DNA of 64,000 bases, from NCBI GenBank assembly GCA_016934715.1, contig JAFGSI010000028.1:62001-126000 (forward strand), written 5' to 3'. Made by a program: the position numbers and the translations under genes. Below the pieces are notes generated by a model. The model was not told the DNA's origin, made no database searches, and saw only the letters and a program-made list of their open reading frames with translations. This document shows positions 13,843 to 28,368 of this stretch, piece after piece. This stretch comes from Anaerolineales bacterium (GTDB lineage: Bacteria; Chloroflexota; Anaerolineae; Anaerolineales; Villigracilaceae). Position 1 is the stretch's first letter. Every line of letters begins with the position of its first letter.

Positions 13843-14170
13843 TCTTGAACCTCCTGTGGGTTACGTGGTGAGTAGGCCACCGCGCTTGCCGGTGGCCTTG
13901 CGTCTTATACGAAAATTCCTTGCGCGAAGAACGGACCGGATGGGGTCCCCAGGGTGAAATTAGGACAATTTTGGCTCAAATAGTTGCGCAATACCCGTAG
14001 TATAGCGCAGACTGGCAGACAAGTCAAAGAGAAAGCCAGATCCGCCCCGGGAAATCCTGACGGAGGCAGCAGGCCTCCTGGGATTTGGCCATCGGGGGGA
14101 ACGGAGATCGGCCCGAATAAGACAAAAACAGTAATAAAAGGGTATAATAGGCCCATTCAAGGAGAAAACG
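13843..14170. other. Divergent intergenic region
   Basis: No gene seen. Towards the minus-strand aldehyde dehydrogenase it contains a leader hairpin (GCCACC with GGTGGC, 13877-13897). Towards the plus-strand thioredoxin-like gene it contains a promoter described separately. Confidence 0.6.
14119..14148 (+). promoter_or_regulatory. Sigma-70-type promoter of the putative selenoprotein gene
   Basis: AAGACA (14119-14124), 18-base spacer, TATAAT (14143-14148), 22 bases before the ATG; AAGGAG follows as ribosome site. Confidence 0.55.
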
Positions 14171-14701
14171 ATGCGCCCAATCCGTTTCTGGTCCACGGGC
14201 CTGCTGCTTGCCCTGGTGCTGGCGGCCTGTGCCCCAGCGCTGGCGGACATGCCGCCTGCCACCGACCCACCGGTTGCCCCGACCCCGACTGAACCACTGG
14301 TCGAGGCGCTGCCCACCGTAACTGGCGGGCCGGGAGCAAGCTCCGAGCCGCTGGCGGTCCCGACGACCCGCGGCGACGCTCTGCAGGCCTCCAATCCGGC
14401 AACGATCAGCCTGGCGATCGGCAAGCCGCAGTTGATCGAGTTCTTTGCCTTCTGGTGAGGAACCTGCCGTTCGATGGCGCCCATCGTGCATGGGCTCGAA
14501 GTGGAATACTACGACCGGGTTGGTTTCGCCTACCTGGACATCGACGACCCGGCGACCGCCCCGTTCAGGAGCGCTCTCGGATACCGCCTCCAGCCGCATT
14601 TCTTCCTGCTCGACGGGCAGGGCAACGTGGTGCGGGAATGGCTCGGCTATGTCTCACCCGATGATTTCCGGACCGCGGTCGATGCCCTGTTAGGGCAGTA
14701 A
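14171..14701 (+). CDS. Thioredoxin-fold lipoprotein, putative selenoprotein (Sec96)
   Basis: Exported lipoprotein of 176 residues if the in-frame TGA at 14456-14458 is read as selenocysteine. The signal peptide ends in the lipobox LAAC (about residue 19), followed by a Pro/Thr-rich linker. The thioredoxin domain starts near residue 83: LIEFFAFW, then TGA, then GTCRSMAPIVHGLE. The TGA therefore replaces the first Cys of the CxxC motif (U-G-T-C). Downstream the domain is intact: YLDIDDPAT, the cis-Pro region LQPHFFLLDGQGNVV, and a regular C-terminal helix. A SECIS-like stem-loop begins 11 bases after the TGA. The ATG has AAGGAG and a promoter. Alternative: a one-base Cys TGC to TGA nonsense change making a pseudogene, but the hairpin and undamaged 3' part argue against that. 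Confidence 0.72.
14470..14500 (+). promoter_or_regulatory. Putative bacterial SECIS element
   Basis: Immediately 3' of the in-frame TGA. Lower stem TTCGA/TCGAA (14470-14474 with 14496-14500), a 5'-side four-base bulge TGGC, upper stem GCCCAT/ATGGGC (14479-14484 with 14490-14495), apical loop CGTGC. The loop begins 26 bases after the TGA and has G as its second base, both within the published bacterial SECIS consensus. Confidence 0.6.
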
Positions 14702-17446: not shown

Positions 17447-18640
17447 TCACTCTTTGTTTTGATCCTTCTTCTGTTGCATCGATTTCTGCTGCCTGGCCCG
17501 GATAGCCTGGGATTTCACTTTCAATTCCTGGAAGAAGTCGCTGCTGATCACTTCCTCCACTTGTTTGCTTTTCTTGACCAGGTCGATTTCGATCCGCAGT
17601 TGTTCTACCTGCTTCCGTAAGACTTTTTCGCGTTCGATGACCTCGCGGGCCATTCTTCCAAAGACCCGGCTCAGGTTGCCAATTTCGTCCTGGTTGTTTT
17701 CCTTCATCAGTTCATTGATCTGCTCGTCCTTAAGTTCCCCGTTTTCCATGTTACGCGCCGCGCCGGTCAGCCGCAGCAGATTGCTGGTCAGCGTCTGCGC
17801 GACCAGGCTGGCATTCGCAACCGTAAAGAGCAGGGTCAAGACGATGGTGGCGATCAGTTTCGGCAGTACGCTCTCAGTATCGCCTTCCTGGCCGCTGAAT
17901 TGCTGGGAAAGGAAGAAACCAAGCAAGGCGATCGGGAGAGCGGCAGACACGATCACCGCCAGCAACAGGCGGCGCAACAGGCCTGACCCCAGCCAGTTGA
18001 TGGATCGCAGGTCGAGCCGGGCGATGTTGAAGAGAAGAATGGGCTGTAAAATGAGCGTATTGACCGCATTCACCTTGACTGCCGGCTGGAATGCAGCCCA
18101 GGAGTCGCTGGCCGTGATAGGAATTTTGGAGCAATTGGCCAGGATCTGACCTGCCTGGATTTGCGCCAGCCATGAACCGGCAGACGCTTCCTGGCAGATG
18201 AAAATCGTGCTATAGGCAGCGAAACCCATCCCCAGAACGATCCCGACCAGCGAAACCAGGAATGCGATGAGTTGTTCCTTTAAGCTGAAGTAAGAGCGCC
18301 AGCGCAGGGCATACAGACCCGGCACAAGTCCCATGATGCCATTGCCGACACTCCACTGCCACCAAACGCCATCCCAAAGAAGGTAATCGCCGAGCAGGTT
18401 CCCGAGAGTGCCCACCAAGAAACCGGCTACCGGACCATACATAAAACCGAATATGATCGGGATGACGATCGCCGGTCGCAGTTCGATATCCAAACTGCCG
18501 CCGAGTTTCGCGAAACTGGTGAACCAGGTGATGGCACAATAAAGCAGTGCTCCAAGAACCGTTGCGATCAATTCGCGCCGACCGAACCAGCGCGCGTTTT
18601 GATGGGGAGTATTCACGCCAGATTGAATGATTTGGGCCAT
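17447..18640 (-). CDS. ECF transporter S-component-like protein fused to a HAMP/coiled-coil tail
   Basis: Membrane protein of 397 residues. Residues 25-180 resemble an ECF S-component: hydrophobic helices with ELRPAIVIPIIFGFMYGPVAGF (about 54) and GTLGNLLGDYLLWDG. Further helices follow at about 210-235 and 260-290. From about 283 LTSNLLRLTGAARNMENGEL starts a HAMP-like linker (NMENGEL, EIGNLSRVFGRMA), followed by a long coiled coil to the C-terminus (KVLRKQVEQLRIEIDLVKKSKQV). S-components normally end after the membrane part and work with EcfT and EcfA, which are not here. The fusion suggests a membrane sensor that uses a substrate-binding module, but this is inference. It is monocistronic and faces queA. 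Confidence 0.65.
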   Translation of the reverse strand: MAQIIQSGVNTPHQNARWFGRRELIATVLGALLYCAITWFTSFAKLGGSLDIELRPAIVIPIIFGFMYGPVAGFLVGTLGNLLGDYLLWDGVWWQWSVGNGIMGLVPGLYALRWRSYFSLKEQLIAFLVSLVGIVLGMGFAAYSTIFICQEASAGSWLAQIQAGQILANCSKIPITASDSWAAFQPAVKVNAVNTLILQPILLFNIARLDLRSINWLGSGLLRRLLLAVIVSAALPIALLGFFLSQQFSGQEGDTESVLPKLIATIVLTLLFTVANASLVAQTLTSNLLRLTGAARNMENGELKDEQINELMKENNQDEIGNLSRVFGRMAREVIEREKVLRKQVEQLRIEIDLVKKSKQVEEVISSDFFQELKVKSQAIRARQQKSMQQKKDQNKE

Positions 18641-27315: not shown

Positions 27316-28368
27316 ATGCAGCAATATCTGCTTGCCTTCATCACCGGCCTGACGACTGGAGGGTTAAGCTGTCTGGCGGTCCAGGGTGGGCTGCTGGCCA
27401 GTTCACTCGAACGCCAGATCGAACAGGACCTGGTTACCCTCCATGCACGGCGCTCCGTGAAGCAGAAGAAGCGCGCCCGCCCGGAGCTGGCCCTGCCGAT
27501 CCTGCTCTTCCTGATTGCCAAGCTGGCGACCTACACCGTGTTGGGTTTCCTGCTCGGAGCCCTGGGTTCAGTCCTGCAGTTGACGCCAGTTACGCGGGCG
27601 GTCCTGTTGATTGCCATCGGGATCTTCATGGTCGGCAATGCTCTGCGCATGTTTGCCGTACACCCCATCTTCCGCTTTTTTACCGTCGAGCCCCCGAAAT
27701 TTATCACCCGTTACATCCGCCGGACCGCCAGGAACAAAGAGAACATCTTCGCACCTCTTTTCCTGGGTGCCCTGACGGTGTTGATCCCCTGCGGAGTGAC
27801 GCAGGCTATGATGGCGGTGGCGGTCGGCACAGGCGACCCGCTGCAGGGTGCCATGCTGATGTTCGCCTTCACGCTCGGTACCACTCCGATCTTCTTCCTG
27901 GTAGCTTACCTGACGATGCAGATTGGTGCCCGGTTGGAAAAATGGTTCCTGCGCTTTGTGGCAGTCGTGGTCCTGGTCCTCGGGCTGGTTTCGATCAATT
28001 CGGGCCTCAACCTGGCCGGCTCACCGCTGGCGTTCCCGGCGGTCTCACCGGAGACCCGTGCGGTGGGCGCACAGCCGGCCGGAGCCACCAGCGTGTCGGA
28101 CGGGATTCTGGTGCTGAGCGCCGAGAACTATGGTTACTCTCCACGGATCCTTCACGCCCCGGCCGGCGTCCCCCTGACCCTCACCGTGGTCACCGACCAA
28201 ACGTATTCCTGTGCCCGGGCTTTCGTCATACCGGTTTTGCGGGTCGAGGTGCTTCTGCCTGAGACAGGTACCGTCCCGATTGAGATTCCAGCCCAGGCGG
28301 CCGGGACGGTGATGCAGTTCACTTGCTCGATGGGCATGTATACCGGCGCAATTGTCTTTGACCAGTAG
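27316..28368 (+). CDS. SafE/TauE-type membrane domain fused to cupredoxin domain
   Basis: Membrane protein of 350 residues. Residues 1-240 form a six-helix sulfite-exporter/DsbD-type domain with TTGGLSCLAVQGGLLASSL (about 13) and LTVLIPCGVTQAMM near 155, where Cys residues (CLA, PCG) sit like those of CcdA/DsbD or SafE copper proteins. After a linker the C-terminal 85 residues (about 265-350) are cupredoxin-like, with YSCARAFVIPVLRV and FTCSMGMYTGAIVF, so Cys and Met replace the usual His-rich copper site. Position in the copper operon suggests copper handling at the outer face of the membrane. The cargo or reaction is not known. Confidence 0.72.
   Translation: MQQYLLAFITGLTTGGLSCLAVQGGLLASSLERQIEQDLVTLHARRSVKQKKRARPELALPILLFLIAKLATYTVLGFLLGALGSVLQLTPVTRAVLLIAIGIFMVGNALRMFAVHPIFRFFTVEPPKFITRYIRRTARNKENIFAPLFLGALTVLIPCGVTQAMMAVAVGTGDPLQGAMLMFAFTLGTTPIFFLVAYLTMQIGARLEKWFLRFVAVVVLVLGLVSINSGLNLAGSPLAFPAVSPETRAVGAQPAGATSVSDGILVLSAENYGYSPRILHAPAGVPLTLTVVTDQTYSCARAFVIPVLRVEVLLPETGTVPIEIPAQAAGTVMQFTCSMGMYTGAIVFDQ

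Follow-up and report, generated by a model that had tools for sequence, protein, structure and literature searches.

Gene and protein layout

At positions 14171-14701 of the window, by which we mean the whole 64,000-nucleotide stretch of Anaerolineales DNA analysed here, a thioredoxin-like frame carries an in-frame TGA. Is this codon translated as selenocysteine (Sec), and if so what would the resulting protein do? That Sec is inserted at TGA 14456-14458 we hold to be very nearly certain. The fuller statement, that the gene encodes a Sec-dependent thiol-disulfide oxidoreductase which is tethered to the membrane outside the cytoplasm and probably acts as a reductase, is given a probability of roughly two in three. 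Re-reading of the sequence bears out the reading frame, coordinates and in-frame TGA described in a first-pass annotation of this DNA. The features of the locus are as follows.

14171-14701, plus strand: thioredoxin-like selenolipoprotein gene, 176 codons with the TGA taken as Sec, TAA stop
14119-14148, plus strand: promoter-like site (AAGACA, 18 nt, TATAAT), a candidate from a consensus scan
14159-14164, plus strand: Shine-Dalgarno-like AAGGAG, 6 nt upstream of the ATG, from the sequence
14171-14230, plus strand: predicted signal peptide and lipobox LAAC (residues 17-20, Cys20), by sequence pattern
14231-14380 (approximate limits), plus strand: Pro/Ala/Thr/Glu-rich linker, pLDDT 56-75 per block
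14387-14692, plus strand: thioredoxin domain, PF00085 over residues 85-159
14456-14458, plus strand: TGA of residue 96, the predicted Sec codon that opens the U-G-T-C motif, by TGA/Cys exchange in 70 loci
14465-14467, plus strand: codon of the resolving Cys99, invariant in alignment A3 (locus L109 has TGA there)
14591-14596, plus strand: Gln141-Pro142, likely cis-Pro loop; Pro142 is invariant and Gln141 present in at least 90% of A3

The promoter-like site matches the consensus at 10 of 12 positions, and the region possesses two such sites versus 0.2 in shuffled sequence. The product begins MRPIRFWSTGLLLALVLAAC, a lipoprotein-type signal with its lipobox, which is followed by the Pro/Ala-rich linker and then by the thioredoxin domain, where TGA replaces the first Cys of CxxC. 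The frame stays open past the TGA, as had been reported, reading EFFAFW-TGA-GTC and then 80 sense codons and TAA. The assignment as a lipoprotein, also proposed earlier, stands as a prediction made by pattern and by eye, without a signal-peptide predictor: LAAC occupies residues 17-20, and Cys20 is kept in at least 90% of the 67-row alignment A3, in which U is shown as C. An automatic lipobox pattern matches in 65 of 70 loci, some of its picks being clearly misplaced.

The thioredoxin domain is recognised by PF00085 at 39.6 bits against a gathering score of 23.5, in agreement with the earlier assignment. AlphaFold modeling with 67 aligned sequences predicts a thioredoxin fold with block pLDDT values of 95-98 from residue 71 onward, leaving residues 1-70 without secondary structure, and the closest PDB structures to the protein are thioredoxins (E 1.3e-8). 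Glu90, conserved in at least 90% of the A3 rows, is taken by us to correspond to Asp26 of E. coli thioredoxin, and Pro142 is presumed to be the cis-Pro by analogy with thioredoxins.

In bacteria, Sec insertion competes with termination, and on that ground the main product could be a 95-residue truncated lipoprotein, with the Sec form minor and selenium-dependent. The truncated chain would stop just past the first predicted strand (residues 87-92) and short of the active-site helix (97-113), and for this reason should not fold; we regard it as very unlikely to be the principal product.

TGA/Cys exchange among homologues

Public genome contigs, when scanned, yielded nine relatives, with TGA at the same codon in seven and TGT in two. 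A profile search (A1; E 1e-8), in which TGA, TAA and TAG are all translated through and tallied, found matches in 323 of 396 genomes of the class. TGA is the only stop in 55 of the best 57 rows (E ≤8.7e-27), 54 of these having one TGA and G207 two; the remaining two are G288, which is stop-free, and G172, with one TGA and three TAA. Being common to many relatives, the TGA gene looks real.

Sixty stretches were taken from the A1 list: 55 of the best 57 rows (G172 left out, and the window's own row counted separately), G270, G342 and G230 from just below them, and G003 and G104, chosen as stop-free. Together with the window and the nine contigs they make up 70 parsed loci, among which contig/genome duplicates are possible. 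The parser searched for U or C only at the active-site codon, and all 70 loci yielded one. TGA occupies this codon in 64 loci, TGC in four and TGT in two; as the loci come mostly from the top of one ranked list, these counts do not represent a random sample. Cys in place of TGA, for which the first-pass annotation had suggested looking, is therefore seen in six of the 70, and by sequence the locus shows the alignment of in-frame UGA with Cys required of a bacterial selenoprotein.

The same annotation had named nonsense mutations after the TGA as evidence that would count against it. There is no further stop over the next 74 codons in 63 of the 64 UGA members, and the median Ka/Ks after the TGA is 0.35 (273 usable pairs) versus 0.33 before it (529 pairs). 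The exception, L109 (G207:C213), has a second TGA exactly on the resolving-Cys codon and so reads UPTU, while L105, of the same genus code, has UATC; L109 represents either a double-Sec site or a sequencing error.

On a tree built by a quick method, the five Cys rows among 67 need four label changes, two of them forced by starred branches. Shuffled labels need 4.9 changes on average, 54 of 500 shuffles do equally well, and 24 of the 64 inner branches are weak. The tree thus shows more than one Sec/Cys exchange and nothing further.

A search of the phylum (400 genomes, A3 profile, E 1e-18) returned 17 rows at ≤9.8e-53, all from two families of the class, the window's own and that of G037. Outside the class no row is better than 1.4e-23; most of these outside rows are stop-free and were taken, without a domain scan, for ordinary thioredoxins.

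The SECIS hairpin

14479-14495, plus strand: bacterial SECIS, stem GCCCAT/ATGGGC, loop CGTGC (14485-14489), by covariation, RNAalifold and synonymous resampling

The published bacterial SECIS model, as given in section 5 of a 2026 review (PMC13188914), has a loop of 3-9 nt, an upper stem of 4-16 bp, a G within the first two loop bases, a distance of 16-37 nt from the UGA and a minimum free energy of -7.5 kcal/mol or lower. The window's hairpin agrees with these rules, having a 5-nt loop (CGUGC) with G second, six base pairs, and a loop that begins 26 nt past the TGA, as first annotated; taken by itself, the 17-nt hairpin has a folding energy of -7.6 kcal/mol, only marginally within the energy limit. 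The annotation had described two pairing blocks. The upper six-pair stem is indeed conserved. The lower block (approximately 14466-14478) appears when the 48-nt segment of the window is folded alone, yet the consensus structure computed for 58 homologues lacks it. It was rejected as a conserved element, RNAalifold on the 58 sequences retaining the upper six pairs only.

Fold energy was likewise rejected as evidence, the z-scores against shuffles being -0.13 for 48 nt and -0.84 for 75 nt. Because the 48-nt energy resembles that of shuffles and the 75-nt fold prefers a structure different from the 6-bp hairpin, the evidence for the SECIS is comparative and not thermodynamic. It comes from a gap-free alignment of 58 distinct 48-nt segments from UGA members, from which RNAalifold recovers the same six pairs (columns 24-29 with 35-40) without being given a structure. 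These are standard pairs in 97.4% of 348 cells, versus 87.0% in shuffles. Cells changed on both sides number 54 versus 15.7, and the covariation score is 0.429 versus 0.214, with slid versions at 0.152 or less; none of 500 shuffles matched the paired fraction, the number of such cells or the score. Both-side changes occur in five of the six pairs (for instance G-C to A-U, C-G to U-A and A-U to G-C), a figure that three of 500 shuffles matched. The number of further pair types in the 58 segments is not above that of shuffles (8 versus 8.1; 428 of 500).

Given that the hairpin lies inside coding sequence, where it codes for Pro-Val-Val-His-Gly-Leu and variants, synonymous codons were resampled at the frequencies with which the family uses them. 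Of the 58 real sequences, 49 form the complete stem of six pairs, whereas the 1000 resampling trials gave 1.7 such sequences on average and never more than 7; conservation of the protein does not explain the hairpin. The remaining nine among the 64 TGA loci form five pairs. The six Cys loci form 1, 2, 3, 3, 3 and 5 of the six pairs, none having all six; the five retained by L100 were counted against the selenoprotein reading. CGTGC is the commonest loop, present in 23 of 38 distinct hairpin cores, with GGTTC next in 12, and loop bases G31 and U32 are invariant across the 58 segments. With covariation this strong, the hairpin could be used to test how SelB recognises its SECIS in the class.

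Selenocysteine machinery

Absence of the Sec machinery from the genome had been named as the other finding that would tell against a selenoprotein. The window's genome (completeness 97.76%) possesses selA, selB, selD and tRNA-Sec, so that neither of the two conditions speaks against the annotation. A tRNA-Sec with anticodon TCA (ARAGORN) lies at C44:3578-3670 and scores 70.1 bits; a second match above the cut-off of the tRNA-Sec model, at 48.2 bits, is a tRNA-Ser. The protein genes, each over its cut-off, are selA at C59:42595-43920 (527 bits), selB at C48:137467-139323 (357 bits) and selD at C14:882-1811 (367 bits). The selD gene (L135, G000:C14:882-1811) has an in-frame TGA of its own (SSCAGUASK), for which reason SelD is probably itself a selenoprotein; such SelD proteins are already known.

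The type of active-site codon is also linked to selA. In 88 genomes whose best A1 match lies at E of about 1.1e-18 or lower, selA at E ≤1e-50 is found in 76 of 80 TGA-type genomes versus one of eight stop-free ones (Fisher p 4e-7, a value that overstates independence, since the genomes are related). The cut falls where reading of the list stopped; the next stop-free genome, G232, has selA, and the one following, G302, is without it. The two-TGA rows G207, G352, G281 and G094 were counted as TGA type, as was G172, and placement of the TGA at the active site was established for the parsed loci. The single stop-free genome with selA is G104, a weak match (5.1e-61). In four TGA-type genomes, G315, G248, G312 and G354, of completeness 78, 91, 67 and 67%, respectively, selA was not found. 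Natural Sec/Cys pairs in the family track the presence of selA.

Across the class, selA at E ≤1e-50 occurs in 318 of 396 genomes (315 over the cut-off), and accordingly the use of selenocysteine looks common there. In genus g135 (L144-L151), selA of G236, G384, G196 and G308 is longer by 27-32 in-frame codons at about model position 246, while in G300, of the same genus, it matches in one piece. A broken gene was considered for the two-piece matches and rejected; in all four genomes both pieces share one open frame, indicating an insertion.

Two explanations that do away with Sec may be weighed at this point. One base change turns TGC or TGT into TGA, so that a pseudogene or a sequencing error at a Cys codon could yield such a frame. 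Against this are the TGA in 64 of 70 parsed loci, the covarying hairpin, the constraint on downstream sequence and the link with selA, which leave it next to no probability. UGA might also be recoded as another residue or be read through at random, for which there is nothing specific in favour; UGA terminates 14 of 43 mechanical ORFs of at least 200 codons in the window, the six non-TGA loci all carry Cys instead, and ARAGORN, run on three tRNA-Sec-like loci, reports a TCA tRNA for just the best of them and calls it tRNA-SeC. This too we consider exceedingly improbable.

Redox partners and proposed mechanism

The genome encodes candidate partners for a thiol-disulfide oxidoreductase. On C61 there is a gene for CcdA with two Ser-Pro-Cys motifs, adjoining a frame that we read as TlpA/ResA-like. 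Within the window, 27316-28368 encodes a DsbD_2 protein with a cupredoxin domain; it comes after a gene that we read as a heavy-metal P-type ATPase. The neighbours of the family's loci are uninformative. No thiol-redox gene was recognised in the 30 largest clusters of neighbouring ORFs, whose names are our own reading except for the domain-scanned genes of the window. The neighbours are lineage-specific, with aldehyde dehydrogenase and CoA transferase in the window's own family and radical-SAM- and glycosyltransferase-like genes in another, so that function cannot be read from context; an operon partner as a clue to function was rejected, there being no conserved neighbour that indicates a substrate. 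As a separate observation, window positions 17447-18640 (minus strand) encode a protein that, unusually, has a HAMP domain after an ECF-type transporter S-component domain.

The same selenoprotein could instead oxidise or isomerise exported proteins and be reoxidised by a VKOR-type protein. An oxidising role is made possible by four VKOR-family matches above cut-off in the window's genome, and the genome also holds a frame, DsbA-like in our reading, with an in-frame TGA at U-P-F-C. The domain itself scores as thioredoxin rather than DsbA, Glu at the place of Asp26 and the CcdA gene suit a reductase, and Sec is thought to favour reduction; we judge the oxidising role unlikely. Granted a selenoprotein, a tethered thiol-disulfide reductase fed by CcdA is quite probable.

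For the reductase, we propose that SelB with Sec-tRNA(Sec) would read the UGA at codon 96, aided by the hairpin just downstream. The product would be a lipoprotein that has a thioredoxin fold and Sec-Gly-Thr-Cys at its active site. The protein would be exported and lipidated at Cys20, and a flexible linker of approximately 50 residues would hold the thioredoxin domain on the outer face of the membrane. There, Sec would react with disulfides, or with oxidised thiols, in exported proteins; Cys99 would then resolve the selenenyl-sulfide formed, and re-reduction would presumably fall to a CcdA/DsbD-type electron carrier in the membrane. The computation itself covers the gene, its covarying SECIS, the Sec machinery, the predicted fold and the Sec/Cys exchange; Sec insertion as such, lipidation, the reducing direction, the electron donor and the substrates are inferred from these. 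Annotation with TGA as a stop would split the gene and miss a conserved surface redox protein.

Other genes with in-frame TGA

At least three further redox or selenium genes with in-frame TGA are found in the window's genome. L002 (G000:C48:39986-40255, minus strand), on the same contig outside the window, is a second thioredoxin-domain gene (PF00085, 37.7 bits). Its in-frame TGA lies in PVLLEFQSPY-U-IACTALKPVVDGLE, after hydrophobic N-terminal segments, and the hairpin GCCCGTCGTCGACGGGC follows past the TGA in the same register. L133 (G000:C2:790-1413, minus strand) is the DsbA-like gene with TGA at U-P-F-C; it scores 164 bits with the model NF041057, below the cut-off of 190 bits. One genome thus appears to hold a lipid-anchored Sec thioredoxin, an apparently membrane-anchored U-I-A-C thioredoxin and a DsbA-like U-P-F-C protein, from which one might tentatively imagine that the class runs much of its outer-face thiol chemistry on selenium, with a Sec-based reducing and oxidising relay outside the cytoplasm.

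Comparison with known families

No description of this family turned up in the literature searched, although the groundwater survey of Deng et al. 2026, which review PMC13188914 names, may list such sequences. The terms "Chloroflex", "Anaerolin" and "lipoprotein" do not appear in the main text of PMC13188914, and the main texts of PMC5029168 and PMC12013277 are without Chloroflex, thioredoxin, lipoprotein or Anaerolin. The 2006 survey PMC1794560 already includes thioredoxin among its selenoprotein families and counts three selenoproteins in Chloroflexi.

Of the known kinds, the closest in design is the bacterial thioredoxin selenoprotein (PF00085, UxxC), listed under "Experimentally verified" in Table 1 of PMC13188914. 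Both have a thioredoxin domain with Sec first and the resolving Cys fourth in the active site, UxxC being present in the window protein as UGTC. The window protein differs in its signal peptide, lipobox and linker. Known thioredoxin selenoproteins are, as a rule, cytoplasmic. With the thioredoxin equivalog TIGR01068 the window protein reaches 41.1 bits against a cut-off of 96.8. The thiol:disulfide interchange protein selenoprotein (PF13098) in the same Table 1 of PMC13188914 likewise has UxxC, but the window protein scores 21.5 bits with that model, whose cut-off is 27.

NF041057 (Rcas_1661 family thioredoxin-like (seleno)lipoprotein) also comprises thioredoxin-like lipoproteins, some members of which have an in-frame TGA; of the 396 class genomes, 62 have a match above its cut-off. 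Membership of the window protein was rejected at 17.5 bits against 190. Nine of the 67 aligned members of the window family match this model at E 0.001, the best at 7.2e-7, and the two families co-occur, for example in G383, G155, G200 and G248. The NF041057 member L123 looks DsbA-like in our reading and, unlike the window protein, has a long insert after the active site.

The TlpA/ResA/DsbE reductases are membrane-tethered thioredoxin folds fed by CcdA, with Cys rather than Sec. They likely share their way of working with the window protein, as CcdA-fed tethered thioredoxin folds, but the latter scores only 25.4 bits with the dsbE model (cut-off 123.15), and no NCBIfam model reaches its cut-off. 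Given that the UxxC kind is known, that NF041057 fails by score and that no NCBIfam model passes, the window family is a new subfamily of the known UxxC thioredoxin selenoproteins, extending the selenoproteins by a branch of lipid-anchored thioredoxins.
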